DNA of 64,000 nt from Streptomyces yatensis (GTDB lineage: Bacteria > Actinomycetota > Actinomycetes > Streptomycetales > Streptomycetaceae): assembly GCF_018069625.1 (NCBI RefSeq), contig NZ_CP072941.1, forward strand, positions 6,386,001 through 6,450,000. The letters are read 5' to 3'. The notes under the pieces were generated by a model. The model had not been told where the DNA came from and made no database searches. It was given only the letters and a program-made list of their open reading frames with translations. A program made the position numbers and the translations under genes. Shown here piece after piece: positions 6,144 to 42,881 of this stretch (positions are counted from its first letter, which is position 1; every line of letters begins with the position of its first letter).

Positions 6144-8096
6144 CTACCCGGACGCCGGGCAGGTGATCATCGTCTGTATGCGGTCCGGCGGCACCGGACG
6201 GGAGTAGAACCACCCCTGTCCGGTATCGCAGCCGATTCGCCTCAGCCGCTCCGCCTGCTCGGCGCTCTCCACGCATTCGGCCGTCACGGTCAGGCCCAGC
6301 CGGTGCGCGAGCTGCACCAGCGCCTCGACGATGGTCTCGTCGGCCGGATTCGGATGCTCCTCGGCCCGGAACCCCTGGACGAACGAGCCGTCCAGCTTGA
6401 GCGTGGAGACCGGCAGCCGGCTGAGATAGGCGAGGTTGGAGTAGCCCGTCCCGAAGTCGTCGATCGCGATGGGCACCCCCATGTCGCTGAGCCGCTGCAG
6501 CGCCTGCAGCGGACGCCCCGTCGACCCCATCACCGCCGACTCGGTCAGCTCCAGCTGCAGCAGATGCGGCGGCAGCCCGGTCTCCGCCAGGATCGTGCCG
6601 ACATCGGCGACCAGGTCGGAGTCCCACACCTGGCGGACCGCCACATTGACGCTGACCACCAGCGGATGGGTCGGATTGGCCAGCTGCCAGGCGCGGGCCT
6701 GGCGGCAGGCGGTGCGCAGCACCCATCGGCCCAGCGGCACGATCGCGCCGTTCTCCTCGGCCAGCGGGATGAACCGGTTCGGCGACAGCCGCCCGAACTG
6801 CGGATGGTCCCAGCGCACCAGCGCCTCCACCCCCCGGACGACCCCGTCGCCCAGCCCCACCAGCGGCTGGTAGTCGAGCACGAACTCCTCGCGCTCGACC
6901 GCCGGGCGCAGAGTGCTGGACAGCGCCTGCCGGGTCATCCGATGGGCGTTGCGCTCCGGGTCGAAGAGCGTCCAGCGCGCCTTGCCGTCCTCCTTCGCCC
7001 AGTACAGCGTGGTGTCCGCGGCCTGCATCAGCCAGGTGGTGTGGGTGCCGGCCGCGGGCCGCTCCACCACGCCGATGCTCGCCGACACCGACAGCCGCTG
7101 ACCGCCCACGTCGAACGGTTCCTGCAGGGCGGCCAGCAGCGACCGGGCGAGGTCGCACAGCTGCTCGGTGCCGGTGGAGTTGCGGACCAGCAGGGCGAAC
7201 TCGTCCCCGCCGAGCCGCGCCACCAGATGGCCGCCGGGCGCGGCGCATTCGGTGAGCCGCTGGGCGACCGCGCCGAGCAGCCGGTCACCGACCCGGTGGC
7301 CGAGGGTGTCGTTGACCGCCTTGAAACCGTCCAGGTCGAGATAGCAGAGCCCGATCCGGCCGGTGCCCCCGTGGTCGTAGGTGGCCGCCTCCAGCGCCGA
7401 GGTCATCCGCTCGAAGAACAGGCTCCGGTTGGGCAGCCGGGTGACCGGATCGTGCATCTGCAGATGGCGCAGCCGCCCCTGGAGATCCCGCTGGTCGCTG
7501 ATGTCGGCCATCGACAGCAGCAGGCTGCAGCTGTCCGGCGCGGGCTCGATGGTGATCTCGGCCCACAGGGCATGGCCGTCGGCGCGCAGCAGCCGCCGGG
7601 TGCGGCGCAGCCGGGCGAGACGGCCGCCCAGGACGTCCCGGTACTCCTTCCAGGTGCGCGGATCCTCGCGCAGATTGGCCAGATCCGCCGCGCTGCGGGT
7701 GGTCAGTACGGCCGGATCGGTGCCCAGCAGGGCGCCGAGCGCGGGGTTGGCGTCACGCACTCTGCCCTCGCGGTCGACGACGGCCATGGCGAGGCGCGCC
7801 ACATTGAAGGCGGCGCGGTAGTCGCCGGGCGCGGGGCCCGGGGCCGGGCCGGCGCCCGGGGGCGCGCCTGACGCCGAGGGCGCCCCGGGCGCTGGGGGCG
7901 CGCCCGGGGGCGACGGCGCGTCGATGGCCGGGCGAGGTGCGCCGGCGTCCTCCGCAACAGGGAGGACGCTGGGGGCAGCATCACGCTCTGTGATCGTCGG
8001 CAGCGTCGCGCCCAGGGCGCGGCCCTGCCCGTCAGGGATTCCGCTCACCGCTCGCTCCCGCGTGGCGTTCGTTGTGTCCAGGTTGTTCGTACGCAT
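6144..8096 (-). CDS. PAS-GGDEF-EAL c-di-GMP turnover protein
   Basis: A 650-aa cytosolic-looking protein with a disordered Pro/Ala/Gly-rich N-terminus (about 1-90), a PAS-like sensor (about 92-220), a GGDEF domain (intact GGDEF in ARLGGDEFALLV, about 310-325) and an EAL domain to the C-terminus. The EAL residues look catalytic: EALVRW, VSVNVAV, ELTES, DDFGTGYS, LKLDGSF and AECVES. The usual RxxD inhibitory site five residues before GGDEF is absent (the site reads GGHL). It may both make and degrade c-di-GMP, which controls Streptomyces development. No membrane helix is seen. The start has only a weak ribosome site. It faces a divergent metalloprotease gene across a 318-nt gap. Confidence 0.9.
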   Translation of the reverse strand: MRTNNLDTTNATRERAVSGIPDGQGRALGATLPTITERDAAPSVLPVAEDAGAPRPAIDAPSPPGAPPAPGAPSASGAPPGAGPAPGPAPGDYRAAFNVARLAMAVVDREGRVRDANPALGALLGTDPAVLTTRSAADLANLREDPRTWKEYRDVLGGRLARLRRTRRLLRADGHALWAEITIEPAPDSCSLLLSMADISDQRDLQGRLRHLQMHDPVTRLPNRSLFFERMTSALEAATYDHGGTGRIGLCYLDLDGFKAVNDTLGHRVGDRLLGAVAQRLTECAAPGGHLVARLGGDEFALLVRNSTGTEQLCDLARSLLAALQEPFDVGGQRLSVSASIGVVERPAAGTHTTWLMQAADTTLYWAKEDGKARWTLFDPERNAHRMTRQALSSTLRPAVEREEFVLDYQPLVGLGDGVVRGVEALVRWDHPQFGRLSPNRFIPLAEENGAIVPLGRWVLRTACRQARAWQLANPTHPLVVSVNVAVRQVWDSDLVADVGTILAETGLPPHLLQLELTESAVMGSTGRPLQALQRLSDMGVPIAIDDFGTGYSNLAYLSRLPVSTLKLDGSFVQGFRAEEHPNPADETIVEALVQLAHRLGLTVTAECVESAEQAERLRRIGCDTGQGWFYSRPVPPDRIQTMITCPASG

Positions 8097-8414: not shown

Positions 8415-9680
8415 ATGGTGCGTCCTCAGGTACCCGAGGGGGTGCACCGGCAGCCTCGGCTGCGTCGGACCGGGGCCCTGCTGACCTCGTTGAGCGCGCT
8501 CATCGCGACCACCGTGGTGGCGGGCCCCGCTGTCGCGGCCGGCCCCGGCGGACCCTGTGACCTGGAACGTACCGACGCCCACCACTCGGAGGGCCTGGAC
8601 ACCTGGAACTCCCGCTACCCGCGCCCGGTGCGCCGGCTGGACGCGGCGATGGTCTTCCTGTCGTTCCCGGACGCCAAGCCCAGAGTAACGCCGGCCCGGC
8701 TGGCCGCCGACCATGTCCCGGCGACCCCCGACTTCTTCAAGCGGGCGTCCTACGGGAAGTTCGCGCTGCGGGTGCATCCGCTGCGGCGCTGGCTCACCAT
8801 GCCCCAGCGCTCCACCGCGTACGCCATACAGCGCGACTGGAACGCCAAGCGGCGGGCCGCGTATCTGCGCGACGCCATCGCGTCCGCCGATCCGCACCTC
8901 GATTTCGGCCGCTATGACCTCGTCTATCTGGTCGCCGACCCCGATGCCCCCGGTGTGGACGCCGACGCGACGAAAGTGGTCAACTTCGAAAAGCCGCTGC
9001 GCGCCGACGGTGTTGATCTGCGCCGTCTGGTGACCGTTTTCGAACACCATCCGCCGGACCGCAATGTCCTGGCCCATGAGACCGGCCATGTCTTCGACCT
9101 GCCCGACCTCTACCACCGGCCGAAGGACACCGACGCCAGCGCCGAATGGGACACCTACGTCGGCGACTGGGACCTGATGGGAAGCCAGTTCGGCATGGCA
9201 CCCGATCCGTTCGGCTGGCACAAGTGGAAGCTGGGCTGGCTCGGCGCGCGCCAGGTGGCCTGCGACCGCGCCATCGGTCCGCGCCGCTACACCCTCCAGC
9301 CGCTCGCCGCCCCCATGGGGCGGGGCAGACCCGGCGCCGACACCCGCACCCGGCTGGTCGTCGTCCGCACCGGACCCACCACGGCGCTGGCCATCGAGGC
9401 GCGCGGCGGCCGCGGCAACGACGCGGGCACCTGCACCGAGGGCGTACTGGTCTACCGCGTCCACAACGACAAGGCGTCGGGCGACGGCCCCGTCCAGGTG
9501 CTGGACGGCCACCCGGCCACCTCCGCCTGCTGGAACGAGTCGGTCTACCCCGAACTCGCCGACGCACCGCTCGGCGTCGGCGACAGCCTGTCGGTCAAGG
9601 AGGACGCCGTACGGATCACGGTGGCCGGCCGCACCGCCGACGGGGGCTGGACCGTCCGGGTCAACCGCCGGGCGCGGTGA
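8415..9680 (+). CDS. Secreted M6-type zinc metalloprotease
   Basis: A 421-aa predicted exported peptidase. A basic N-terminus leads into a hydrophobic signal segment (about 18-40) ending near VAAGPG. The zinc site is HETGHVFDLPDLY (H221 and H225, with Asp downstream), the HExxHxxxxxD arrangement of M6 (immune inhibitor A-like) proteases, followed by a conserved WDLMGSQ Met-turn segment. Several Cys in the second half could form disulfides. ATG 8415 has GGAGG 5 nt upstream. The target is unknown. A strong family call rests on the zinc motif and the Met-turn. Confidence 0.87.
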   Translation: MVRPQVPEGVHRQPRLRRTGALLTSLSALIATTVVAGPAVAAGPGGPCDLERTDAHHSEGLDTWNSRYPRPVRRLDAAMVFLSFPDAKPRVTPARLAADHVPATPDFFKRASYGKFALRVHPLRRWLTMPQRSTAYAIQRDWNAKRRAAYLRDAIASADPHLDFGRYDLVYLVADPDAPGVDADATKVVNFEKPLRADGVDLRRLVTVFEHHPPDRNVLAHETGHVFDLPDLYHRPKDTDASAEWDTYVGDWDLMGSQFGMAPDPFGWHKWKLGWLGARQVACDRAIGPRRYTLQPLAAPMGRGRPGADTRTRLVVVRTGPTTALAIEARGGRGNDAGTCTEGVLVYRVHNDKASGDGPVQVLDGHPATSACWNESVYPELADAPLGVGDSLSVKEDAVRITVAGRTADGGWTVRVNRRAR

Positions 9681-9869
9681 TGACGGTGCCGCGCCGGTCT
9701 TCCACCACTCCTCGGCCCGCTGACGACGCCGCGCGGATGACCAGGTCGGGCGGCTGACGGAGCCGCGCCGATGGCCGGGGCGCGTGCATAACCGGTGATC
9801 AAGTCGGCTTCGAGGTGCCGCTTCGAGACTGTGGGCCCCTTTTCGACGTCGGGCGCCCGGGAGTTGAGA

Positions 9870-11513
9870 ATGCCGCGACACGCGAATCTGGCCGAGGCCC
9901 TGAAGGAACGCGCCCTCCGGTGCGCCGACGGTACGGCGCTCGCCCACCCCGCCGACGACGGCACCGAACACCGCGTGTCCTACGCCGCGCTCGACGCCCG
10001 CGCCGACGCCGTGGCCGCCTGGCTGCGCGCCCGGGACGCGGCAGGCCGCCGGGTGCTGCTCGCCATGGACCCCGGTCCGCACGCCGCGGTGGCGCTGCTC
10101 GGCTGTCTGTACGCGGGCGCCGTCGCGGTGCCCGTCGCCGCGCCGTCCGCCTCCCGGACCGATGCCGAGCGCACCGCCTCGATCGTCCGTGACGCCGCCG
10201 TGGACCTCGTCCTCACCGAGACCGCCCACGCCACCGAGACCTCCCGCAGGCTCTCCCGGGTCGGCCGCGCCGGTCTGACCTGCCTCGCCGTCGACGGACT
10301 CCGCCGCGACGGGTACGACGGCGCGCCCCGGCAACCCGTCCGCACCACCGGCGACAGCCTCGCGCTGCTCGCCTACGACTCCGGGCCCGCCACCGCCCCA
10401 CGTGGTGCCCTGCTCACCCATGGCAGCCTTACGGCGGCCATGGCGGGACTGCGGCGGACGCTCGGCACCGACCGCCACTCCCGGATCGGCGGCTGGCTGC
10501 CCCGCCGCCACACCCCCGGGCTGATCGGGCAGGTGCTGCATCCGCTGTGGCTGGGCGCCACCGCCGTGACGCTTCCGGCGGAGCCGTTCCGCACCGATCC
10601 GCTCGGCTGGCTGCGGGCCATCAGCCGCCACGGCATCACCGAAACCGTCGCGCCCGACATCCTCCACGCCCGCTGCGCCGCCCTCCTCGGCGACGAGCCA
10701 CCGGCCGGGCTCGACCTCTCCCGCTGGCGGACCGCGCTGAACGCCGGGGAGCCCGTCTCGGCCGGGACCATGGCCGCCTTCCCCCACCGCTGCGCGCCCC
10801 TGGGGCTGCGCCCGGGCGCCCTGGTGGCCGGATACGTCCCGGCCGAGGGGTCCCCGGTGGCGCTGGCCACGGGGCGCGCACCGGTGCCGGGCGCGGACTT
10901 CGCCGTCGTGGACCCGCTGACCGGGCGCCGGCTGCCGGACGGGGCGCCGGGGGAGATCTGGGTGCGCGGCCCCGCCGTCGCCACCGGCCACTGGGGCGGT
11001 CCGCCGGACACCGCGCCGCTGTTCGCCGCCCGCGTCGCCGAGGGGCCGGGCGGCTTTCTGCGCACCGGCGATCTCGGCCTTACGGTGAACGGCCAGCTCC
11101 GGATGACCGGCCGGCTCCGTGACGCCCTCCTGGTGGACGGCCACACCCTGCATCCACAGGACGTGGAGCGCGAACTGCTGCGCTGCGCGCGGGCGCTGGG
11201 GTCGGCCCGGGTGTTCTGCGCGGGGCCCGGTGCGGGGGCGCTGGTGGTCGTCCAGGAGGTCGTCCGTACGGCGGGCGGGACGCGCACCGGGCTGCCCCGG
11301 CTGGCGGCGCGGATCCGCGCCCTGATCGCGGAGGAGTTCGGTGTCGTGACCGGCGCGCTGCTGCTGGTACGCCCCGGCACCGTGCGCGGGGCGGGAGCCG
11401 CCAAGGTGCGGCGCGCCCTGCTGCGCGAGCGCTACTTGCGGGGTGAAGTGCGGGCCCTGCACGCCGAGTTCGGGCCGGAGGTGGGTGAGCCCTGCCGGGG
11501 TGGTGCGGCATGA
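9870..11513 (+). CDS. Fatty acyl-AMP ligase-like adenylate-forming enzyme
   Basis: A 547-aa ANL-superfamily protein closest in pattern to fatty acyl-AMP ligases, which activate acids for polyketide or lipopeptide carriers. Visible motifs are GEIWVRGPAVATGHW, FLRTGDLGL and GRLRDALLVDGHTLHPQDVE (the FAAL form of the hinge region), and a C-terminal KVRR segment. The phosphate-binding loop is unusual: YDSGPATAPRG in place of the common YTSGSTGxPKG. No carrier protein or synthase is adjacent, so it is an orphan. GGGAG lies 8 nt before ATG 9870. Activity is plausible but not certain because of the altered loop. Confidence 0.75.
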   Translation: MPRHANLAEALKERALRCADGTALAHPADDGTEHRVSYAALDARADAVAAWLRARDAAGRRVLLAMDPGPHAAVALLGCLYAGAVAVPVAAPSASRTDAERTASIVRDAAVDLVLTETAHATETSRRLSRVGRAGLTCLAVDGLRRDGYDGAPRQPVRTTGDSLALLAYDSGPATAPRGALLTHGSLTAAMAGLRRTLGTDRHSRIGGWLPRRHTPGLIGQVLHPLWLGATAVTLPAEPFRTDPLGWLRAISRHGITETVAPDILHARCAALLGDEPPAGLDLSRWRTALNAGEPVSAGTMAAFPHRCAPLGLRPGALVAGYVPAEGSPVALATGRAPVPGADFAVVDPLTGRRLPDGAPGEIWVRGPAVATGHWGGPPDTAPLFAARVAEGPGGFLRTGDLGLTVNGQLRMTGRLRDALLVDGHTLHPQDVERELLRCARALGSARVFCAGPGAGALVVVQEVVRTAGGTRTGLPRLAARIRALIAEEFGVVTGALLLVRPGTVRGAGAAKVRRALLRERYLRGEVRALHAEFGPEVGEPCRGGAA

Positions 11514-11656: not shown

Positions 11657-12262
11657 ATGGTCAGGGTGCTGATCGCGGAAGACATGCATATGTTGCGCAA
11701 GGCCCTGGTCGCCCTGCTGGAATTCGAACCGGACATCGAGGTGGTGGCCGAATTCTCCAGCGGCGCCGATATCCTGCCGCGCGCCCGTGAACTCCGCCCG
11801 GATGTCGCCGTCCTCGACATCGATCTGCCGGGTATGGACGGGCTCACCGCCGCGGCCGAGTTGAGCACCGCCGTTCCCGAATGCCGCACCATGATGCTCA
11901 CCAGCCTCGGCCGCCCCGGAAATCTGCGCCGGGCGCTGGCCGCCCATGTCTCCGGCTTTCTGCTCAAGGACAGCAGCCCGGACAAGCTGAGCGACGCCAT
12001 CCGCGCCGTCGCCCGGGGCGAGCGGGTGATCGATCCGCAGCTGGCGCTGGCCGCCCTGGACGACGGTCCGCAGCCGCTGACCCCGCGTGAGCTGGAGGTC
12101 CTGCGGTTCGCCGCGAAGGGGGAGGAGTCCGCGCAGATCGCGGCCAAGCTGTTTCTGTCGGTGGGCACGGTGCGCAACTACCTGACGTCCGCCGTGACCA
12201 AGCTGGACGCCCGCAACCGCGTCGACGCCATCCGGATCGCCCGCGAGGCGGGCTGGCTGTAG
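11657..12262 (+). CDS. NarL/LuxR-type response regulator
   Basis: A 201-aa response regulator: receiver domain (about 1-120) with acidic pair E8-D9 and phosphoacceptor D54 in VLDIDLPGMDG, then a LuxR-type DNA-binding domain (LTPRELEVLRFAAKG through VGTVRNYLTSAVTKL). It belongs to the DesR-like group. ATG 11657 follows a purine-rich GGCAGGGGGCGGG; an upstream extension would be non-homologous. Its probable partner is the DesK-like kinase convergent with it 10 nt away. The preceding gene ends 143 nt upstream. Confidence 0.9.
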   Translation: MVRVLIAEDMHMLRKALVALLEFEPDIEVVAEFSSGADILPRARELRPDVAVLDIDLPGMDGLTAAAELSTAVPECRTMMLTSLGRPGNLRRALAAHVSGFLLKDSSPDKLSDAIRAVARGERVIDPQLALAALDDGPQPLTPRELEVLRFAAKGEESAQIAAKLFLSVGTVRNYLTSAVTKLDARNRVDAIRIAREAGWL

Positions 12263-12272
12263 GAGCACACCC

Positions 12273-13571
12273 TCACGCCGTCACGGTCGGCCCCGGGCCG
12301 TACTCCTCCTTCGAGTCCTTGGAGTCCTTGGATTCCCTGGAGTCCTTCGCGTCCTTCGAACGGCGCTCCCGGCCGCTCCGCGGCGGCGCGTCCACGGACA
12401 CATCCAGCTCCGCCCGTAACTCGAACCAGCCGTCCGACCGCACGCCCGCGCGCAGCCGCCCGCCGAGGTTCTCCACCCGGACCCGGAGGTTGCCGATTCC
12501 GCTGCCGCCGTCCGTGCTGTCGGTGCGCAGGATCGTGGACGGCCGGCCGACCCCGTCGTTGACCAGGGTCAGCCACACCTGGCGTCCGCTGCGCCGCGCC
12601 TCGATCGCGCAGTGGTCGGCCTTGCTGTGGCGCAGCACATTGGTCAGTCCCTCGCGCAAGACGCTCGCCAGCACCGTGTCCACCAGCTCCGGCAGCGGTC
12701 CGCAGTCGATCTCGGAGGTGGTGCTGATGCCCGCCGCGGCCAGCATCGAGCGGGCCGTCGCCGACTCCGCCGACAGCGACATCTTGCGGTAGCCGCTGGC
12801 CACGGCCCGTACGTCGGCGAGGGCCTGACGGGAGGTCTGCAGGATCTCCGAAAGCTCCTGCTGGGCCCGGGAGTTCTGGCGGGGCACCAGCCGGTGCACC
12901 AGCTCGCATTTGAGGGTGATCGTGGACAGGCTGTACCCGAGCAGATCGTGCACATCCCGGGAGAACCGCAGCCGCTCCTGGGCTACCGCCAGCCGGGCCA
13001 GCTCCGCCCGGGACCGGGACACCTCGGAGACCAGCCCGGACAGCCGCGAGAGCCCGAAGACCACCAGCCCGGTCAGCGCGGTGGAAACCGAGGTGTACGC
13101 GACCTGGCCCCAGCCGAAGCCCACCTGGAACAGCAGCACATCCGTGCACAGCAGGATGGCCGCGAACGCGGGCCACGCCAGCGCCGGTGCCAGCACCAGC
13201 AGCGAGGAGCCGGCCAGAAAACCCGGCATGCCCAGCCAGGCGTGTTTGAAGACCGCGAAGGGGGCGAAGGTCAGCACCGCCTGGAGCGCCAGCGTCCGGC
13301 GCCGTGCGCCGCTGAGCCGGGGCGCGAGACCGGGGAAGGAGTGCAGCATCTGGAGGCAGAGCAGCATGGTCATCGGCAGCAGCGCCAGCCCGAGCATCGC
13401 CGCGTCGATCGTCCTGCCCGAACGATTGCCGTCGACCACATAGGTGACGGCCACGGCGAAGTAGCCCACCAGCACCAGGACCGTGATGACGACGGCCAGG
13501 CGCGGCGCCAGATTGTCGTGGTGGCGCGGTGGGTGGTTCCCGGCATCGTCGGGCAAGAGGCTCCCCTGCAC
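12273..13571 (-). CDS. DesK-type sensor histidine kinase
   Basis: About 432 aa. Several hydrophobic helices occupy roughly residues 20-165, then a HisKA_3 dimerisation domain with H208 in HDLLGYSLS and an HATPase domain with an SGIGNLRVRVENLGG segment. This architecture pairs with NarL-type regulators, so the convergent 11657-12262 gene is the likely partner. The tail is a low-complexity repeat of Ser-Lys-Asp units encoded by imperfect 9-bp repeats near 12305-12360. GTG 13571, with GGAGG 4 nt upstream, is the preferred start; a GTG at 13688 would add 39 unlikely residues. Codon 385 is TTA, so translation may depend on bldA. Confidence 0.86.
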   Translation of the reverse strand: MQGSLLPDDAGNHPPRHHDNLAPRLAVVITVLVLVGYFAVAVTYVVDGNRSGRTIDAAMLGLALLPMTMLLCLQMLHSFPGLAPRLSGARRRTLALQAVLTFAPFAVFKHAWLGMPGFLAGSSLLVLAPALAWPAFAAILLCTDVLLFQVGFGWGQVAYTSVSTALTGLVVFGLSRLSGLVSEVSRSRAELARLAVAQERLRFSRDVHDLLGYSLSTITLKCELVHRLVPRQNSRAQQELSEILQTSRQALADVRAVASGYRKMSLSAESATARSMLAAAGISTTSEIDCGPLPELVDTVLASVLREGLTNVLRHSKADHCAIEARRSGRQVWLTLVNDGVGRPSTILRTDSTDGGSGIGNLRVRVENLGGRLRAGVRSDGWFELRAELDVSVDAPPRSGRERRSKDAKDSRESKDSKDSKEEYGPGPTVTA

Positions 13572-13694
13572 TCGTCCTCCGGATGGTCGGGCCGGATTGG
13601 GTGGCTTGCCCGAGAGTATCCGATCTTTACTCGGGGTGGAGAGGCCACGTGGAAGGCTCATGGTGTACGCAGAGTTACGCGTTATCACGGGGGA

Positions 13695-16103
13695 TCACAG
13701 GAAAAACGGAATCGGGTTGAGATCCGCGTAGGGCGTGGGCCCCGGCAGCCGTCCGAGCGCGACCGGGACGTCGAAGAGCCGGCCGGGTGCGAACCGGGCC
13801 CAGTGCGGGCGCATTCCGGGCACCAGCACCTTGGCCACCGGCAGCCCCACATCCGGCCGGGTCTGGTCCAGCACCAGCAACTCCATCCCGCGCCGCCGCA
13901 CCACCTCCCTCACGGCGGCCAGGGCGCCGCCCTCCGGGGGGCCGGATATCGCCCGGGGCGGTACGGCGGCGGCCGGATCGGGCGTCAGATACGGGTGGTC
14001 GGCCGGGGTCGCGGTACGGAACCAGCGCAGCGCCTCGGGCTCGGCGGTGCCGTAGCCCCCGCCGTCGGCGCGGGCCTCGACCACCGCCGGGAGCATCTGG
14101 TTCAGCTCGGCGAGGGCGTGGCACAGCGCGGTGTGCCGGTCGAAGTGGGCACCGAAACCGAGGGTGATGTCCTCGGCGGGCTTGTCCAGGCGCCGGGAGA
14201 GCGCGGCGACCACCGGGATGCCGAAGTCCGTGGTGAGGTCCAGGGCCCACACCTCGCGCCGCAACCCCCGGTGTACGGCGCGCACTTCGGCCGGCCACGG
14301 GTCGTCGAAGGCGTCCAGGGCCACGGCGGGCTGCCGGGTGCGGTTGTACCACCACAGGGCGACCGCGTCCCGCTCCACCAGCTCCAGGAAGCCCCGTACG
14401 ACGGCGTCGGCCAGTGTGCCGCCCGCCGCCGCGCCGTTGGAGTCCGCCCGGCAGCAGCGGCGGCCCGGGGGCTGCGGGGCGCCGTAGTACAGCAGCGCGG
14501 TGGGCAGCAGCCGGTGGCGTTCGGCGGTGAGCGACCACACCGGGGTCCAGTCCAGCTCCGCGTCCTCGTCGAACGGATCGTGGATCCGGTGGCGCGCGGG
14601 CAGGGCGGGGTCGCGGAACTGGCGCGGGTCGAAGAGCTGGACGGTGTCCGGGTGCACCGCGTCGTCCGGGTGCAGATCGCGGTAGCGGGCGCGCTGCCGT
14701 GGCTCGTCCCCCTGGAAATGGCCGCTGTAGTGCTCCAGGGCCTCGCACAGCGCGCTCGCCCGTGCCTGTTCGGCGGTGCGGCCCTTACCGTGGGCGGCAG
14801 CCCGCAGCCCGGCCCTTACGGAGTCCAGGCCGCTGTGGGGACCCGCTCCCGCGTACGAAGGGTGGCGGGCGTGGAAGCAGTTGAGGACGGCGGGGCCGCG
14901 CGGATCGCGCCGGATCTCGGTGACCAGCCCGGTGACCGGGTCCACCAGATGTCCGTAGCGCTCCATGATCCGGCGCGGGGAGGTGTCGGTGCCGGGTTCG
15001 GCCAGCGGCTCCCGTGGCGACGGCAGCGCCAGGGGCGCCCGTATCCGGGCCGCGACCAGCGCCGGATCGCCGCAGCCGGCGCACTGCGGGCGGCGGGAGA
15101 GCGGATGGCGGTCCACGGTGGCGGTGAGGCTGTCCAGGGTGCGCAGCTCCCGCTGACCCGGATGCCGGTGCCCGGCCAGCCACTTGGCGGCCTCCAGGGC
15201 GGCGAGCTGGAGCGCGGCGGCGCGGCTCGCGGGCAGTGAGGCGGGTGGGCGCGGCACCGGTCCGGGGCGGCCCAGCCGGTGCTGGAGATACGCCTCGGCC
15301 TGCCGTCCGCGCCACAGCCGGTCGGCCAGACAGACCCAGCACGGGTCGTCGGGGGCGCCGAGGAACGGGCCCAGCCACGCCTGGGTGCCCACCGGTTTGA
15401 CGGGCAGCCAGCGACGGCCGGCGGCGCGGTGGGCGGCGTCCACGGCGGCGAGCCGCGGATCGAGGTAGTCATCGCACGCCACAAGGGTGAGTTCTGCGTC
15501 GCCATGTTGACGGGGAGCGATTTGACATATCTCTCGCCGAGGGCTAGTGGCCCCGGAAGCCGTCGGATCGCCGTCCGCCGTCTTGCCGTTCACCGCCTCG
15601 CCACCCGCCGCCTCGCCTTGCGCCGCCTTCCCGTCCACGGTCCTCAGGTCCGCGATCCTCAGCCCCGCGGCCCGCAGCGCCCCGACCACCTCGCCCGGGT
15701 CGGCCGAGCCGAGGACCAGCGGGGCCACGGCGGGGCGGGACGGCGGGGGTCCGGGGGCCGGGGCGGAGCCGCCCGCGGTGTGCAGCCCGGCCAGCTCCCA
15801 GTACGCCTCCTCGGGGGTCCAGGCGTGGTCCCGCTCGGAGACCAGCCCGGCCGCGCGGAGGCGGGCGATCACGCGCTCGGCCTGCCCGGCCGGGACCGCG
15901 CCGGGCGGACCCGCGGCGCCGGCGGGCGCGGCGGCCTCGGTGAGGATGTGGGCGAGGTCCCGCGACCCGTCGAGCAGCGGCGCGAGCGCGGCGATGGCCC
16001 GTCCGTGCAGCGCCGTGACCCCGTGCTCGGAGACCAGATACACGGCCTCGCCCGGCACCGGCTCGACCCGCAGATGTGGTGTGAAGCCCAGTTCGCCGGT
16101 CAT
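13695..16103 (-). CDS. Fused E1-like/YcaO RiPP cyclodehydratase
   Basis: An 802-aa azoline-forming maturase. The N-terminal part resembles TOMM leader-peptide-binding proteins: a recognition region (about 8-60), then an E1-like fold with two zinc CxxC pairs (C255/C258 in CWVC, C341/C344 in CAGC). From about 380 it is a YcaO domain, with GRTAEQARASALCEALEHYSG and ELVERDAVALWWYN as ATP-site segments, ending in NPIPFFL, a variant of the proline-rich YcaO tail. YcaO enzymes use ATP to cyclise Cys, Ser or Thr on a precursor. It starts 7 nt after the stop of the candidate precursor gene, so the two are probably translated together. No SagB-type dehydrogenase is nearby. Confidence 0.88.
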   Translation of the reverse strand: MTGELGFTPHLRVEPVPGEAVYLVSEHGVTALHGRAIAALAPLLDGSRDLAHILTEAAAPAGAAGPPGAVPAGQAERVIARLRAAGLVSERDHAWTPEEAYWELAGLHTAGGSAPAPGPPPSRPAVAPLVLGSADPGEVVGALRAAGLRIADLRTVDGKAAQGEAAGGEAVNGKTADGDPTASGATSPRREICQIAPRQHGDAELTLVACDDYLDPRLAAVDAAHRAAGRRWLPVKPVGTQAWLGPFLGAPDDPCWVCLADRLWRGRQAEAYLQHRLGRPGPVPRPPASLPASRAAALQLAALEAAKWLAGHRHPGQRELRTLDSLTATVDRHPLSRRPQCAGCGDPALVAARIRAPLALPSPREPLAEPGTDTSPRRIMERYGHLVDPVTGLVTEIRRDPRGPAVLNCFHARHPSYAGAGPHSGLDSVRAGLRAAAHGKGRTAEQARASALCEALEHYSGHFQGDEPRQRARYRDLHPDDAVHPDTVQLFDPRQFRDPALPARHRIHDPFDEDAELDWTPVWSLTAERHRLLPTALLYYGAPQPPGRRCCRADSNGAAAGGTLADAVVRGFLELVERDAVALWWYNRTRQPAVALDAFDDPWPAEVRAVHRGLRREVWALDLTTDFGIPVVAALSRRLDKPAEDITLGFGAHFDRHTALCHALAELNQMLPAVVEARADGGGYGTAEPEALRWFRTATPADHPYLTPDPAAAVPPRAISGPPEGGALAAVREVVRRRGMELLVLDQTRPDVGLPVAKVLVPGMRPHWARFAPGRLFDVPVALGRLPGPTPYADLNPIPFFL

Positions 16104-16110
16104 CGGCCGG

Positions 16111-16377
16111 TCATTCGGCGCCGACGGTGCAGATGCAGATGGCGGGCGCGCCGAGGGGCCAGGCGGCGTCGGAGAGGTCCTCGATGACCAGGTCGTCGTC
16201 CTCGGCGGGCGGCTGAACGGCCTCGGCGGCGGTCCCGGCGGCCCCGGCGCGCTGGGCGACCCTGGCGCGCTCGGCGATCTCGACGACCCCGGTGACCCGG
16301 GTGACCTCGGTGTTCTCGGCGGAATGAGCCAGGACGGCGGGGCTCGTGGACTCATGGGGGACGGGCGTATCGGTCAT
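16111..16377 (-). CDS. Candidate RiPP precursor peptide for the YcaO enzyme
   Basis: An 88-aa peptide directly upstream of the cyclodehydratase gene. The first 70 residues are a leader-like region with an acidic patch EDDDLVIEDLSD (59-70), the sort of segment bound by leader-recognition domains. The C-terminus reads APAICICTVGAE (77-88), with C81, C83 and T84 as candidate azoline sites. It has no hydrophobic signal and no similarity I recognise to a named family. ATG 16377 is preferred because AGAGAG precedes it; ATG 16392 would add five residues. The precursor role is inferred from position, size and composition. Confidence 0.75.
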   Translation of the reverse strand: MTDTPVPHESTSPAVLAHSAENTEVTRVTGVVEIAERARVAQRAGAAGTAAEAVQPPAEDDDLVIEDLSDAAWPLGAPAICICTVGAE

Positions 16378-16392
16378 CGCGGACTCTCTCAT

Positions 16393-16558
16393 CGCCAGGG
16401 TGTGAATTTGTCATGGTGCGGCGCTCTGGAACTCATATCGAGCTCGTTACTCCAGCACTGGCCGCACAGGTCGCCCACAAGCGAGGCTCTTAAATGCCTC
16501 GGTGGCAGGCCGCGCGGCCAGGAGGCACTTGACGGACCGTTGACGGAGGTACACGACC
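16393..16558. promoter_or_regulatory. Divergent promoter between precursor and SARP genes
   Basis: A 166-nt region separating the precursor/YcaO operon from the SARP gene, with locally lower GC. It contains the palindrome CGAGCTCG near 16439-16446. SARP proteins bind direct heptamer repeats near -35 elements; I cannot identify such repeats with confidence. Auto-control and control of the RiPP operon from here are the natural expectation. Confidence 0.45.
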
Positions 16559-17383
16559 ATGGACATCAAGGTGTTGGGGCCGCTGAGCGTCGAGGCGTGC
16601 GGTCAGTCGATCGTGCCCAGCGCGGGCAAGCCGCGCCAGATCCTTGCACTGCTTTCCGTCTACGCCAACCAGATGCTGCCGGTGCCCACTCTTATGGAGG
16701 AAATCTGGGGCACGCAGATGCCGCGCAGCGCGCTCACCACTTTGCAGACCTACATCCTGCAGTTGCGCCGCAGGCTGGCCGCGGCCTATGGCCCGCAGGC
16801 CCCGCAGGCTTCCAAGGACGTCCTCGCCACGCGCTACGGCGGATATGTGCTGGAGGCGCAGCCGGGCGCGGTGGACATCCATGAGTACGACCGGCTGGTG
16901 GCCGCGGGGCGGGACGCGCTGGACGCCGGCGACGATGTCCAGGCGTCCCTGCTGCTGCGCGAGGCGCTGGCCGTCTGGCGTGGCCCGGCGCTGGTGGATG
17001 TGAAGGTCGGGCCGGTCCTGGAGATCGAGCTGGCCCGTCTGGAGGAGAGCCGGCTCGGCGTCCTGGAGCGCCGTATCGAGGCCGATCTGCGGCTGGGCCG
17101 CCATGCCGAGCTGCTCACGGAGCTCACCGAGCTGACCGCCCGCCATCCGCTGCACGAGGGGTTGCACGCCCAGTGCATGGCCGCGCTCTACCGCGCGGGC
17201 CGCCCCTGGCAGGCGCTGGAGGTCTACCAGGGGCTGCGCGCCAGACTGGTCGAGGACCTCGGGCTGGAGCCGTCGCCGCGGCTGCAGAAGCTCCAGCAGG
17301 CGGTGCTCGCCTCCGACCCGGCGCTCGATCTGGACCTGGACGGTCACTGGCGCCGCCCGGTGCTCGACCTGTTCGCCGCGTAG
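16559..17383 (+). CDS. SARP-family pathway activator
   Basis: A 274-aa AfsR/DnrI/RedD-type regulator: an OmpR-like winged helix (about 1-95, with TLQTYILQLRRRL as the recognition-helix segment) followed by a bacterial transcriptional activation domain (about 100-250, HEYDRLVAAGRDAL and HPLHEGLHAQCMAALYRAGR). Small SARPs activate adjacent natural-product genes. GGAGG lies 9 nt before the ATG. It diverges from the precursor/YcaO operon and lies upstream of an FAD monooxygenase, so it is the likely activator of this locus. No TTA codon is seen. Confidence 0.93.
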   Translation: MDIKVLGPLSVEACGQSIVPSAGKPRQILALLSVYANQMLPVPTLMEEIWGTQMPRSALTTLQTYILQLRRRLAAAYGPQAPQASKDVLATRYGGYVLEAQPGAVDIHEYDRLVAAGRDALDAGDDVQASLLLREALAVWRGPALVDVKVGPVLEIELARLEESRLGVLERRIEADLRLGRHAELLTELTELTARHPLHEGLHAQCMAALYRAGRPWQALEVYQGLRARLVEDLGLEPSPRLQKLQQAVLASDPALDLDLDGHWRRPVLDLFAA

Positions 17384-17605: not shown

Positions 17606-17670
17606 TGCGTCCAGGGGAGGTCACAGGCGCCCGATGCCCATGCCCTGGAGCTCGACCAGCAGGAGGCGCG

Positions 17671-18906
17671 ATGACGCGCGAGATCGACACCGATGTGTGC
17701 GTCGTCGGCGGCGGCCCGGCCGGTCTGGTGCTGGCGCTGCTGATGCTGCGGTCGGGGGCCCGGGTGACCGTGGTGGAGTGCGCCCGCGCACATCAGCGCG
17801 TGTTCCGCGGCGAAATCCTCCAACCCGGCGCGATGGCGCTGCTGGACGCGCTGGATGTGCTCGCCGGCGCCCGCGCCCGAGGCGCCCATGAGCACGACCG
17901 ATTCCTGGTGATCGAGGGCGAGCGAGTGCTGCTGGAGGCCGACTACCGGCTGCTCGCGGCCCCGTACGACCACCTGTTGAGCGTCCCGCGCCCCCATCTG
18001 CTCGATGAGCTCCTCGCCCGCTGCCGCCGCTCGCCCGGCTTCCGTTATCTGCCCGGACGACGGGCCGGGGCCCTGCTGTGGCGCGAGCGGCGGATCGCCG
18101 GGGTCGTCGCCGAGGGGCCGCCGGGCCGCTGCGCCGTACGGGCCCGGGTCGTCGTCGGCGCGGACGGCCGGTTCTCGCGGATCCGGCGGCTGGCGGGCAT
18201 CGGGGCGGGCCGCGCCGACGCGTTCGCCCAGGACGTGCTGTGGTGCACGCTCATCGCGCCCCGCGAAGAGCCGCCGCTCCGCGATGTGCGGGTGTTCCGC
18301 ACCGGCGGCGGCCCGGTGCTGGTCTACGGCTCCTGGCCGAACCGGATCCAGATCGGCTGGACCCTGCCGCAGCGGAGCCACGGCCATCTCGCCGCCCTCG
18401 GCCTCGACCACGTCAAGGAGCGCCTGGAGCGCGCCGTGCCGGGGTACGCCACGCTGATCCGCGATCAGCTCCGCACCCCGGCCGACCTCGGCGCGCTCGA
18501 GGTCTTCTCGGCACGCGCCGAGCGCTGGGTCGCCGATGGGCTGGTGCTGATCGGCGACGCCGCCCACACCCACAGCCCGATCGGCGCCCAGGGCATCAAC
18601 CTCGCGGTGCAGGACGCGGTGGTGCTGCACCCCCTGCTGGCCCGCGCCCTGGCCGAGGGCGACACCAGCGCCGAGCGGCTGGCGGAGTTCGAGCGGCGCC
18701 GAGGGCCCGATATCGCGGCGGTGATGCGGATGCAGACCCTGCAGAGCCGGGCGATCCTCTCGCAGGGCGCCTTCACCACCCGGGTGCGCCCCCGAATCGC
18801 GCGGGCGCTGCGTCGTACGCCGCTCTATCGCAAGATCCTGCGGCGCATGGCCTACGGCAACCCGTCGATCCGCATCGCCGACGCCGGAGTGTGCGGCCGG
18901 ATATGA
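17671..18906 (+). CDS. FAD-dependent aromatic-hydroxylase-type monooxygenase
   Basis: A 411-aa group A flavoprotein monooxygenase (PF01494 fold). It has the dinucleotide motif VVGGGPAGLVLALLMLRSGA (about 9-28), the middle GADGRFSRIRRLAG motif and the FAD-pyrophosphate motif LIGDAAHTHSPIGAQGINL (about 290-308). An AGGAGG sits 4 nt before ATG 17671. In this position it is a candidate tailoring enzyme of the RiPP locus, for example hydroxylation or oxidation of a modified residue. A role unrelated to the peptide is equally possible, since no substrate feature is recognisable. Confidence 0.88.
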   Translation: MTREIDTDVCVVGGGPAGLVLALLMLRSGARVTVVECARAHQRVFRGEILQPGAMALLDALDVLAGARARGAHEHDRFLVIEGERVLLEADYRLLAAPYDHLLSVPRPHLLDELLARCRRSPGFRYLPGRRAGALLWRERRIAGVVAEGPPGRCAVRARVVVGADGRFSRIRRLAGIGAGRADAFAQDVLWCTLIAPREEPPLRDVRVFRTGGGPVLVYGSWPNRIQIGWTLPQRSHGHLAALGLDHVKERLERAVPGYATLIRDQLRTPADLGALEVFSARAERWVADGLVLIGDAAHTHSPIGAQGINLAVQDAVVLHPLLARALAEGDTSAERLAEFERRRGPDIAAVMRMQTLQSRAILSQGAFTTRVRPRIARALRRTPLYRKILRRMAYGNPSIRIADAGVCGRI

Positions 18907-19000: not shown

Positions 19001-19951
19001 ATGCACACTGTCGTGATCCTGGCGCTGGACCAGGTGGTCCCCTTTGATCTGGCCACCCCGATCGAGGTGTTCAGCCGCACCCGGCTGCCCGACGGCCGGG
19101 AGCCCTACCGGGTCCGGGTCTGCGGCCCCGCCCCCAGCGTCGACGCCGGGGTGTTCGCCCTCCAGGCCCCGTACGGGCTCGAGGCGCTCGCCGAGGCCGA
19201 CACGATCGTCGTGCCCGGCCGCGGCGACGCCCTGCTCCCGGTCCCCGACGAGGTGATCGGCGCGCTGCGGGACGCCGCCGACCGGGGCACCCGGATCGCC
19301 TCGATCTGCTCCGGGGCGTTCGTCCTCGCCGCCACCGGGCTGCTCGACGGACTCCGCGCCACCACCCACTGGCTCGCCGGTGCGCTGCTTTCCGAGCTCC
19401 ATCCGAAGATCCAGGTCGACCCGGATGTGCTCTATGTGGACAACGGCCAGTTCCTCACCTCGGCGGGCGCCGCGGCCGGGCTCGATCTGTGTCTGCACAT
19501 GATCCGGCGCGACCATGGCTCCGCCGTGGCCGCCGACGCCGCGCGGCTGTCCGTGATGCCCCTGGAGCGGGAGGGCGGGCAGGCCCAGTTCATCGTTCAC
19601 GACCAGCCGCCCGTACCGCGCGGATCGGTGTTCGAACCCCTGCTGCGGTGGATGGAGGACAACGCCGGGCGTGACCTCACCCTCCACGAGATCGCCGCCC
19701 ACATCGGCATGAGCACCCGCACCCTCAACCGCCGCTTCCGGGAGCACACCGGGACCACCCCACTGCAATGGCTGCACCGCGCCCGGATCCGGCAGGCGCA
19801 GTATCTGCTGGAGGCCACCAACTACCCGGTCGAGCGCATCGCCGGCCAGGTCGGCTTCGGCTCGCCCACCTCCTTCCGGGACCGCTTCAAGCGCGTCGTC
19901 GGCACCAGCCCGCACAGCTACCGCTCCGCCTTCCAGCGAAACGCGGGATAG
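19001..19951 (+). CDS. GlxA-type regulator (DJ-1/PfpI + AraC domain)
   Basis: A 316-aa transcription factor with an N-terminal DJ-1/PfpI-like domain (about 1-190), which keeps the cysteine elbow ASICSGAFVLAATGLL, and a C-terminal AraC domain with two helix-turn-helix units (LHEIAAHIGMSTRTLNRRF and YPVERIAGQVGFGSPTSFRD). Such proteins respond to small metabolites, usually amidated or amine compounds. It sits 94 nt after the monooxygenase gene on the same strand and 103 nt before the SDR gene, and may control either. Confidence 0.9.
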   Translation: MHTVVILALDQVVPFDLATPIEVFSRTRLPDGREPYRVRVCGPAPSVDAGVFALQAPYGLEALAEADTIVVPGRGDALLPVPDEVIGALRDAADRGTRIASICSGAFVLAATGLLDGLRATTHWLAGALLSELHPKIQVDPDVLYVDNGQFLTSAGAAAGLDLCLHMIRRDHGSAVAADAARLSVMPLEREGGQAQFIVHDQPPVPRGSVFEPLLRWMEDNAGRDLTLHEIAAHIGMSTRTLNRRFREHTGTTPLQWLHRARIRQAQYLLEATNYPVERIAGQVGFGSPTSFRDRFKRVVGTSPHSYRSAFQRNAG

Positions 19952-20054: not shown

Positions 20055-20825
20055 ATGTTGGACCTCGGCCTGGAGGGGCGCACGGTCCTGGTCACCGGGG
20101 CCACCGGGGCCATCGGCCGGGCCGCCGCACGCGCCTTCGCGGAGCAGGGCGCCCGGGTGGCGCTCGCCTTCCGATACCAGCGCGAGGCCGCCGAGGCGCT
20201 GGCCGCCGAGCTCTCCGGACCGGACGGCGGCAGGGCCTTCGCCGTGCCGTACGCCCTGGACGACGCCGCGTCGCCGCGCTGGGTCGTGGCCGCCGTCGAG
20301 GAGCACTGGGGCGGGCTGGACGTGCTGGTGGCGGCCGCCCGGCGGCGGGGCGCGCGCCGCGATCCGCACACCCGGTTCGAGGACGTACCGGAGGAGCACT
20401 GGCGGCCGCTCGTCGCCGACGGCTTCGTGCCCGCGGTCCGCACCGTCCAGTGGGCCGTCGCCGGGATGCGCAAGCGCGGCTGGGGCCGGATCGCGCTGGT
20501 GGCCTTGGCGCGGCCACCGGACGGCGCGGCCGACGGGGAGTTCCATGCGGTGGCACGGGCCGGGCTGCACGGTCTGGTCCGCGGTCTGGCGGGCGAAGTG
20601 GGCGGCGACGGCGTGCTGATCAACGCCGTGTGCCCCGGGCCGACCCCGCCCGACCGGCCGCCGACCGCGTCCGACCAGCGGTCCACCCCGCCCGACCGGC
20701 CGTTCACCCCGCCCGACCGGCCGCCTGCCGCTCCCGAGGAGATCGCCCGCGCCCTCCTCTTCCTGTGCTCGGCGGCCAACGGCACGATCACCGGCGAAGC
20801 GCTGACGCTCACGGGATGCCGCTGA
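20055..20825 (+). CDS. SDR-fold protein with a degenerate active site
   Basis: A 256-aa Rossmann protein. The cofactor motif TGATGAIGRAAARAF is intact near the N-terminus, but the usual catalytic YxxxK is replaced by FHAVAR (Tyr to Phe, Lys to Arg), and the preceding serine position is not recognisable. After PGPTPP it carries a proline-rich insertion built of imperfect PPDRP units (about 198-228). It may bind NAD(P) without reductase activity, or act as a dehydratase-like or scaffolding protein. It lies between the GlxA-type regulator and a glycosyltransferase on the same strand. Confidence 0.8.
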   Translation: MLDLGLEGRTVLVTGATGAIGRAAARAFAEQGARVALAFRYQREAAEALAAELSGPDGGRAFAVPYALDDAASPRWVVAAVEEHWGGLDVLVAAARRRGARRDPHTRFEDVPEEHWRPLVADGFVPAVRTVQWAVAGMRKRGWGRIALVALARPPDGAADGEFHAVARAGLHGLVRGLAGEVGGDGVLINAVCPGPTPPDRPPTASDQRSTPPDRPFTPPDRPPAAPEEIARALLFLCSAANGTITGEALTLTGCR

Positions 20826-20917: not shown

Positions 20918-22174
20918 GTGCGCGTCCTGTTCACGACCTGGGCCTCCGGCGCCCATCTCGTTCCCATGGTGCCGCTGGCGCGCGCCCTGCTCGGGGCCGG
21001 GCACCAGGTGCGGGTCGCGGTGCCGTCCGACTGCGCGGCGGCCGTCGCCCGGACCGGTCTGGTGCCGGTGCAGCTCGGTGCCCTGCCCATGGCGGTGGTC
21101 AGGGCACCGGACGCGACGCGGCGCCCGCGCGGCATCTGGCCGACGGACTGGCCGGTGCGCCCCGCCGCGCTCACCCCGGAACAGCACGGGGTGCTGCGCG
21201 CGTTGGGCGATCGGCAGGTGCGGATCGCCGAGGCGATGGCCCAGGGGCTGGTGGCCTTCGCCCGCTGCTGGCAGCCGGAGCTGGTGGTGCATGACGCGAG
21301 CGCGTACGCGGGCACGGTGGCTGCGGGGGCGCTGGGGGTGCCCGCCATCGGTCAGCTCTGGGGGAGCGCGGCCGTGCTGCGGCTGGACCGGCAGCGGCTC
21401 GAAGGCCCGCCACTGCCCGGCTACGCCCGGTTGATGCGGCGTTACGGCGCCGACCCGGCGCGCGAGCCCGACCTGTGGCTCGACCCCTGCCCGCCGAGCC
21501 TCGCGCTGCCCTCGCGGGCGCGGCGCCTGCCGGTGCGCCTCGTTCCGCAGGACGGGCCGTCGCCGCATGAGACGCCATCGCCTTACGAGGCCCGCCGCGC
21601 CGGGCCGCACCCCGCGCGCCGGGCCGCCGTGCCGAACGGGCGGCGCGGGCCGGGCGGCCCCAGGCGCTCCGGGCCGGTGCGGGTGTGCGCGGCCTGGGAC
21701 GACGCCAGTGGCCCGCCGGACGCCGTAAGGGCCGCGCTGTGGGCCGCCGAGGCGCGGGGCGTGGAGGTCGTCCGGGTCGGCAGCGCCGCCGAGGGGCGGC
21801 CGCCCGCCGGGCCGCTGCACCGGGTGCTGCCGGGCTGCCGGGCCCTGCTCCACCAGGGCGGGGGCTCGGCGGTGCTGGCCGCCGCCACTGCCGGGGTGCC
21901 ACAGCTGGTCGTCGCACCCGGCCTCGAGCAGCAGCTGAACGGGGCGCGGCTGGCCCGGGCGGGCGCCGGGATGTATCTGCCCGCCGACGCCCTCGACGGC
22001 AGCCGGTGCGGGGCGCGGGCGGTGGGCGGGCGGCTGGCCCTGGACCTGTTCGCCCTGCTGGAGCAGCCGTCGTACGCGGCGGCGGCGCATGCCCTGCGGC
22101 GGGAGGCGCTGGCGATGCCCGGCCCGGACAAGGCGGTCCTGGCGGTCACCCGGCTCACGGGCCCGGCGATGTGA
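20918..22174 (+). CDS. GT-B fold glycosyltransferase (GT1-like)
   Basis: A 418-aa nucleotide-sugar transferase. The N-terminal half begins MRVLFTTWASGAHLVPMVPLARAL, typical of natural-product GTs that bind the acceptor. The C-terminal half carries the donor-site segment HQGGGSAVLAAATAGVPQLV and a following NGARLARAGAG. A low-complexity basic linker (about 210-250) joins the halves. GGGAGGTG lies 5 nt before the GTG start. Acceptor unknown; position suggests decoration of a product of the neighbouring locus. Confidence 0.85.
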   Translation: MRVLFTTWASGAHLVPMVPLARALLGAGHQVRVAVPSDCAAAVARTGLVPVQLGALPMAVVRAPDATRRPRGIWPTDWPVRPAALTPEQHGVLRALGDRQVRIAEAMAQGLVAFARCWQPELVVHDASAYAGTVAAGALGVPAIGQLWGSAAVLRLDRQRLEGPPLPGYARLMRRYGADPAREPDLWLDPCPPSLALPSRARRLPVRLVPQDGPSPHETPSPYEARRAGPHPARRAAVPNGRRGPGGPRRSGPVRVCAAWDDASGPPDAVRAALWAAEARGVEVVRVGSAAEGRPPAGPLHRVLPGCRALLHQGGGSAVLAAATAGVPQLVVAPGLEQQLNGARLARAGAGMYLPADALDGSRCGARAVGGRLALDLFALLEQPSYAAAAHALRREALAMPGPDKAVLAVTRLTGPAM

Positions 22175-42874: not shown

Positions 42875-42881
42875 GTCCGGG

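Follow-up and report, generated by a model that had tools for sequence, protein, structure and literature searches.

A YcaO locus for a predicted azoline peptide, linked to a two-component system and a SARP gene in Streptomyces yatensis

The 64,000-nucleotide stretch of Streptomyces yatensis DNA analyzed here (contig NZ_CP072941.1, positions 6,386,001 to 6,450,000; hereafter the window) carries a short peptide gene directly upstream of a fused YcaO cyclodehydratase gene, accompanied by genes for a histidine kinase, a response regulator and a divergent Streptomyces antibiotic regulatory protein (SARP). Directly visible in the sequence are the gene order, its linkage across a clade of relatives, the conserved leader and core of the peptide, the paired DNA sites between the SARP and precursor genes, and the variability of the surrounding genes. 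This combination makes it somewhat probable that the modified peptide is an autoinducer sensed by the linked two-component system.

Precursor and cyclodehydratase at the window locus

The core of the locus consists of the following features:

16111-16392, reverse strand: precursor open reading frame (ORF), 93 aa (88 aa if translation starts at the ATG at 16377); contains EDDDLVIEDLSD, with C-terminus APAICICTVGAE
within 16111-16392, reverse strand: precursor leader DDLVIEDLSD and core AICICTVGAE
13695-16103, reverse strand: fused E1-like/YcaO cyclodehydratase, 802 aa (PF02624, TIGR03604, TIGR03882)
12273-13688, reverse strand: histidine kinase (HisKA_3), maximal ORF 471 aa (PF07730, 57.2 bits)
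11660-12262, forward strand: NarL-type response regulator, convergent with the kinase gene (NCBIfam NarL/MadR-like matches, under equivalog cut-offs)
16559-17383, forward strand: SARP activator gene, divergent from the precursor (BTAD domain PF03704, E 3.6e-46)
16402-16414, forward strand: dyad 1, GTGAATTTGTCAT (RTGA-N5-TCAY), 23.7 bits, a proposed response-regulator site
16441-16464, forward strand: dyad 2, AGCTCGTTACTCCAGCACTGGCCG, 20.8 bits, about 45 bp from dyad 1

Everything that a first-pass annotation of the window had described is present in the sequence: the peptide frame, the 7-nt gap (between the precursor stop at 16111 and the YcaO ATG at 16103), the fused cyclodehydratase, the divergent SARP gene, and the flavin adenine dinucleotide (FAD) monooxygenase, short-chain dehydrogenase/reductase (SDR) and glycosyltransferase genes beyond it. 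The kinase gene follows YcaO directly on the same strand, its maximal ORF beginning at 13688 and the start picked by the gene caller lying at 13571; hydropathy segments mark the N-terminal half of the kinase as hydrophobic, without a large sensor domain.

The proposal of a thiazole/oxazole-type precursor beside its cyclodehydratase is supported by both partners. The enzyme matches PF02624 (E 4.5e-94), TIGR03604 (242.1 bits, cut-off 219.25) and TIGR03882 (128.6 bits, cut-off 36.9), and its match to the N-terminal winged-helix family PF21084 is slightly under the cut-off (23.3 vs 24.1). The locus combines a YcaO domain, a fused E1-like partner and an adjacent precursor with a conserved leader and a Cys/Ser/Thr core, as a thiazole/oxazole-modified microcin (TOMM) pathway does. 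The closest solved relatives of the enzyme are LynD (E 4.7e-139), TruD (E 4.3e-138) and MusD (E 8.4e-129), which share its fused architecture and likewise have, beside the enzyme, a precursor with a leader and a Cys core. The alignment to LynD covers residues 196-800, whereas the N-terminal leader-binding part matches it weakly (12.7 bits), and the window system further differs in its host family, its gene neighborhood and its link to a kinase, a regulator and a SARP. Cyanobactins are defined by PatA/PatG-type subtilisin proteases, and Pfam and NCBIfam scans of the window neighbors, the part of the genome searched, found neither these nor a cyanobactin macrocyclase. The same scans found no SagB-type dehydrogenase gene next to YcaO, in agreement with the first-pass annotation, and in a locus with no such oxidase azolines are the simplest product.

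Searching some 5.8 billion proteins returned 41 homologues of the precursor (E ≤ 0.01), whose named source organisms are Streptomyces, often of the violaceusniger/malaysiensis/antimycoticus group. In the resulting 42-sequence alignment 21 columns are listed as invariant; the N-terminal MxDT, DDLVIE.LS, W73 and ICICT are constant and the middle varies in sequence and length, which is the pattern expected of the leader, spacer and core of a ribosomally synthesized and post-translationally modified peptide (RiPP). A varying leader or C81/C83/T84 had been named as grounds against a precursor role, and both are invariant in these 42 close sequences. The tail had also been called unfamiliar. This holds for the window peptide, which has no match in Pfam or NCBIfam at E 0.1; the leaders of three distant relatives that were compared resemble TIGR04351 (TOMM_nitrile_2, a putative TOMM peptide). 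These leaders (comparison loci are numbered L throughout) are of the L161 type (E 9.5e-17), the L102 type (E 1.6e-10) and the L046 type (E 9.3e-8), and all fall under the cut-off, the best at 60.3 bits vs 65; the L033-type and window precursors do not match TIGR04351. A profile search of the PDB with the precursor gave a best E of 0.91, no further precursor copy was found in the S. yatensis genome (next best E 0.044), and a literature text search for the core sequence was unproductive.

Distant precursors share an LVIEDL-like leader, and their cores diverge strongly. The core of the more distant relative L009 reads ACICICTAGD; elsewhere ICICT, TCICW, FVCW and SICVV occur, with FTLCAGP twice in one peptide and an FTFCA-type core three times in another. 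Repeated cores are found in three loci (L033, L035, L104). A leader-like pattern, picked after viewing the sequences, is present in 53 of 62 called precursors vs 9 of the 348 remaining small ORFs in these loci. A somewhat different leader pattern delimits 55 precursors, in which 98 of 108 cysteines follow the leader and C-x-C follows it in 19. The gap between the end of the small ORF and the called YcaO start is at most 70 nt in 52 of 62 cases, the remaining gaps reaching up to 790 nt. Given the homologues, the invariant columns and the distribution of the leader pattern, a chance ORF was rejected.

Kinase linkage and paired DNA sites among relatives

With a limit of E ≤ 1e-60, relatives of the YcaO protein turned up in 15 of 61 Streptomyces genomes, in 47 of 91 family genomes (18 of the 91 being Streptomyces) and in 6 of 89 class-level genomes (three of the six being Streptomyces). 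A further 21 plasmid records matched YcaO at E 1e-30, of which 12 were fetched, and the kinase as a second query gave 40 of 111 genomes. L099 was left out (same plasmid as L051), L001-L008, L010 and L011 served for synteny and not for the tree, and regulators missed by the caller in L043, L102 and L173, as well as the precursor in L101, were added by hand. In a quick YcaO tree of 91 loci (midpoint root, no bootstrap, branches supported by the Shimodaira-Hasegawa-like approximate likelihood ratio test), one group with support of 100 holds 64 loci.

The recurrent order is a divergent SARP gene, a small ORF, YcaO, an optional gene for SagB or for a protein designated f8, the histidine kinase and the response regulator. 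In 63 of the 64 clade loci the kinase gene comes directly after YcaO or is separated from it by a single SagB or f8 gene; in L049 it is three genes away. The kinase query brought in 17 of the 64, and the unbiased count is therefore that of the loci found without it, 46 of 47. None of the 27 loci outside the clade has an adjacent kinase of the cassette family; in three of them such a kinase lies at a distance of six genes. A response regulator is present in 63 of 64 clade loci (not found in L157), the kinase is of the same family in all 48 clustered loci, and a SARP gene falls within the fetched stretch in 47 of 64. Orthologous loci lacking the peptide gene would have argued against a precursor; 63 of the 64 clade loci have a small ORF ahead of YcaO, with no precursor found in L173. 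The cassette-type YcaO occurs in 30 of the 91 sampled family genomes. Six non-Streptomyces plasmid control records show no kinase/regulator pair beside YcaO, and in the Nostoc MS1 control a large sensor kinase is listed two genes on from YcaO, without a regulator. Tandem pairs of same-family histidine kinases occur in L038, L090, L152, L154 and L111.

A SagB-type gene is located up to three genes downstream of YcaO in 15 of the 64 clade relatives (e.g., L039, TIGR03605 at 92.6 bits vs a cut-off of 78.4), and f8 in 15 of the 64. The f8 protein has roughly 200 aa (L032:14415-15035, reverse strand) and no Pfam or NCBIfam match; its start resembles by eye the N-terminal part of SagB-like f14 proteins, and it is possibly a SagB remnant that retains the peptide-binding part alone.

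The paired DNA sites were derived from 34 SARP/precursor intergenic regions, comprising the loci with a divergent SARP gene directly upstream, minus four near-copies; some of the remainder are interrelated. The dyad ATGA-N4-TTCA is present in 24 of the 34 (top dyad in five shuffles: 8), and motif fitting resolved two dyads, cATGAaATTTTCATg and TCGTGA.....tCACTGG. Dyad centers are 22-24 or 45-47 bp apart in all 33 scored loci (shuffles: mean 1.4, maximum 6); L009, with a called precursor start inside the operator, was omitted from this count, and its dyad is visible. In each of the 33 loci the leave-one-out score for dyad 1 lies above the 99th percentile of the shuffles. A strict form of dyad 1 has three matches in the 10.36-Mb S. 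yatensis genome, one of them at the window locus; the other two lie at the end of a LysR-type ORF and near a luciferase-like ORF and do not clearly extend the regulon. Across 61 genomes there are 48 strict matches (reversed control pattern: 9), nine of them within the sample's 14 cassette loci where 0.026 are expected. Seven of these nine loci, or near-copies of them, trained the motif and two (G015, G017) did not; five of the 14 have no strict match. The spacing and the rarity of the strict form led to the rejection of chance operator matches.

At a threshold of 18 bits, dyad 1 is present in 43 of 63 cassette loci vs 1 of 28 others (L049 being counted among the 28). Of 29 cassette loci outside motif training, 16 carry dyad 1 at 17 bits or more (L036, L088 and L161 being near-copies of training loci) and 13 do not. 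In non-training loci (e.g., L032, L044, L097, L157 and L174) it stands upstream of the precursor, f8 or SARP gene, f8 being the downstream gene in several loci. A general role for dyad 1 in SARP promoters is disfavored: among nine loci with the histidine kinase only, dyad 1 occurs in L111 alone, away from any called SARP gene, and in two of this type, L108 and L112, dyad 2 alone lies upstream of SARP. SARP sites are usually direct repeats, and as both dyads are inverted repeats, a dimeric NarL-type regulator fits better than a SARP; the DNA-binding part of the regulator shows clade-wide conservation, with a mean pairwise identity of 0.68. In the window locus the ATG of the precursor is about 31 bp away from dyad 1 and the start of SARP 151 bp away, so the SARP gene may be the main regulatory target there. 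Elsewhere in the window, a strong match to dyad 2 alone (42868-42891, 21.0 bits) beside a called ORF (42882-44216) is probably due to chance.

Variable neighbors and co-variation

The first-pass annotation had outlined a compact locus with YcaO at its end and had suggested that the FAD monooxygenase, SDR and glycosyltransferase could belong to one small system with it. Neither view is supported, as the kinase and response regulator genes, which it did not mention, follow YcaO, and neighbors of this kind differ between loci. Also absent from that description were the AMP-ligase-like gene and the AraC/DJ-1-type regulator among the flanking genes:

9861-11513, forward strand: AMP-ligase-like (fatty-acyl-AMP-ligase-like) gene beside the regulator, an optional part (PF00501, E 1.9e-50)
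17668-18906, forward strand: FAD monooxygenase-like, a possible SARP output gene (PF01494, E 5.2e-42)
19001-19951, forward strand: AraC/DJ-1-type regulator, between the FAD monooxygenase and SDR genes
20055-20825, forward strand: SDR, a possible output gene (PF13561, PF06722 and PF21036, given jointly with the glycosyltransferase)
20918-22174, forward strand: EryCIII-like glycosyltransferase, a possible output gene (Pfam matches given jointly with the SDR)

Gene order is identical in eight close loci with full flanks, excepting the AMP-ligase-like gene, which was not found in L003, L004, L007 and L008 (of these, L003, L004 and L007 belong to the eight). A PAS/GGDEF/EAL protein (window 6144-8096) is also kept near the cassette in close loci. 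Across 48 loci, no protein family beyond the kinase, regulator, YcaO and SARP occurs in more than 13, the counts being 13 for the AMP-ligase, 13 for a ketosynthase (KS), 6 for the FAD monooxygenase, 11 for the SDR and 11 for the glycosyltransferase; with neighbors varying to this extent, a closed compact antibiotic locus was rejected. Annotated neighbors of the cassette on plasmids comprise an MbtH/adenylation/tryptophan-dioxygenase set, deoxysugar genes, ketosynthase/acyl carrier protein (ACP) genes, aminomutase, chorismate-mutase and deoxysugar genes, and a ketosynthase/chain-length-factor/ACP set.

Locus L109 retains genes 77-92% identical to those of L093/L094 (SARP 88%, kinase 57-60%) and has neither precursor nor YcaO in the 397-bp gap between SARP and kinase (9047-9443), either a natural deletion or the ancestral state. 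The retention of this cluster in the absence of precursor and YcaO speaks against the peptide being a structural component of its product.

Pairwise distances of the kinase and YcaO are correlated (r 0.60 over 42 loci, 0.81 over the 30 with a SARP gene), as are those of the regulator with YcaO (0.43 and 0.74) and with the kinase (0.83 and 0.76), and of YcaO with SARP (0.49). The N-terminal half of the kinase is more variable than the kinase half in 346 of 351 pairs. Between the window and L037, identity is 92.0% for SARP, 84.4% for the regulator, 69.2% for YcaO and 71.7% for the kinase, and within the focal group SARP and regulator are nearly constant and YcaO and kinase drift together. The window SARP (16559-17383) is unusually conserved, being 100% identical to those of L001, L002, L006, L011 and L088, where YcaO is 83-90% identical.

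A candidate peptide signal and its alternatives

Tailoring neighbors change while the kinase, the regulator and often the SARP stay, which points to a regulatory cassette. With the constant parts forming a signaling circuit and the variable parts its outputs, the favored explanation, judged from sequence somewhat more probably right than not, is that the peptide is an azoline RiPP acting as an autoinducer: a dedicated two-component system would sense it and drive the peptide's own operon and/or SARP. Peptide, modifying enzyme, kinase and regulator occur together in one locus, as in an autoinducing peptide with its two-component system. The acidic VIEDL leader would hold the 88-aa precursor on the fused cyclodehydratase, which would turn the Cys residues of the ICICT core, and perhaps the Thr, into azolines; with no oxidase encoded at the locus the rings may remain azolines. 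Leader removal and export would fall to enzymes encoded outside the cassette, after which the modified peptide would be the ligand of the adjacent membrane kinase, and the kinase would phosphorylate the NarL-type regulator. Binding of the regulator to two or more dyads on one DNA face between precursor and SARP would raise transcription of the precursor operon (feedback) and/or of SARP, and SARP would then turn on the biosynthetic genes beside it.

Several observations weigh against this explanation. Dyad 1 fails to reach 18 bits in 20 of the 63 cassette loci, and in the window its position relative to the precursor ATG is close for an activator of that gene. The precursors of L163 and L166 have no Cys after the leader motif, and a stricter leader pattern is missing in 9 of 62 called precursors. 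In the fetched stretches 17 of 64 clade loci have no SARP gene; kinase, regulator and SARP occur without YcaO in seven loci of 18-20 kb plus two contigs of less than 4 kb; and 13 of 24 outside loci without the kinase have a response-regulator-like gene near SagB. No protease or exporter family recurs in the cassette (48 loci), an ATP-binding cassette ATPase family being present in 6 of 48 and a major facilitator superfamily family in 7 of 48. Finally, linkage alone can give correlated divergence, and over 42 loci the regulator-kinase correlation is higher than that of YcaO and kinase.

Precedents are provided by goadsporin and by AbsA1/A2, a two-component system that acts on the promoters of pathway-specific regulators. 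Goadsporin is an azole peptide and promotes the secondary metabolism of actinomycetes; its clusters have a dehydrogenase (B protein). Its core contains six azoles and two dehydroalanines (PMC5303826). Like the window system, it is a Streptomyces TOMM with a fused cyclodehydratase; the window locus differs in its single core with two Cys, its lack of an oxidase and its dedicated two-component system.

Among the alternatives, the one that survives best, unlikely as it appears, is a small azoline-peptide natural product (e.g., an antibiotic) whose own production is controlled by the linked two-component system and SARP, with the flanking enzymes tailoring the peptide. Such self-control is known from nisin-type autoinducing lantibiotics, in which a modified peptide with its own kinase and regulator is the antibiotic and is accompanied by exporter, protease and immunity genes. 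The cassette resembles these in joining a modified ribosomal peptide to a kinase and regulator in one locus, and the TOMM precursor, the cyclodehydratase and the retention of FAD monooxygenase, SDR and glycosyltransferase in all violaceusniger-type loci agree with a peptide product. However, no dedicated exporter, protease or immunity family recurs among the 48 loci, the outputs vary, and wider relatives swap the tailoring genes for unrelated biosynthetic sets while kinase and regulator stay.

A two-component system that senses something else (e.g., envelope stress or the cluster product) and is merely co-inherited with the peptide pathway is improbable. The loci with kinase, regulator and SARP but no YcaO agree with it, and AbsA1/A2 of S. 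coelicolor acts on the promoters of pathway-specific regulatory genes with no ribosomal peptide or cyclodehydratase partner described in the available part of the source (PMC3098853). The near-obligate adjacency of this YcaO clade to one kinase clade (63 of 64) and the correlated divergence of the two proteins argue against it. A third possibility, very improbable, is that the neighboring cluster's product takes up the modified peptide as a building block (a peptide-polyketide or acyl-peptide hybrid, the AMP-ligase-like gene providing the acyl donor). AMP-ligase and KS families are among the most frequent neighbors, but the neighboring pathways are too dissimilar, the L109 cluster persists although precursor and YcaO are absent, and four of the close loci yielded no AMP-ligase-like gene.

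The azoline autoinducer may have a wider meaning, although this extension is more tentative: a widespread hormone system of the Streptomycetaceae, in which azol(in)e peptides with locus-specific cores would serve as private autoinducers for dedicated kinase/regulator pairs. These pairs would act through paired dyads separated by two or four turns of the helix, ahead of SARPs that activate antibiotic-type clusters of unrelated kinds, and the system would be a peptide equivalent of the gamma-butyrolactone hormones. Each of the three elements (TOMM pathways, two-component systems that sense peptides, and control by SARPs) is already known; searches of open-licence PubMed Central papers turned up no description of their combination, and the available part of a 2015 TOMM survey uses none of the terms histidine kinase, two-component and response regulator. 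If this reading is correct, Streptomyces and relatives would possess a class of ribosomal azoline-peptide hormones that control diverse biosynthetic clusters, every precursor core would predict a synthetic inducer of the neighboring and in many cases silent cluster, and each peptide with its kinase would be a candidate for an orthogonal switch. This would also explain small YcaO loci inside polyketide-type, nonribosomal peptide synthetase-like and deoxysugar clusters with no obvious use for a thiazoline peptide.

Other YcaO arrangements were encountered in the comparison. L175-L188 represent another YcaO/SagB locus type, which lacks a kinase of the cassette family and in most cases has genes for three large proteins upstream, and L120 and L190-L197 a third, in which YcaO and SagB are followed by proteins of about 270, 750 and 990 aa, without a kinase. 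On the plasmid of L051, a second YcaO-like and TfuA-like pair (L051:14856-17434) and a second two-component system lie close behind the cassette.

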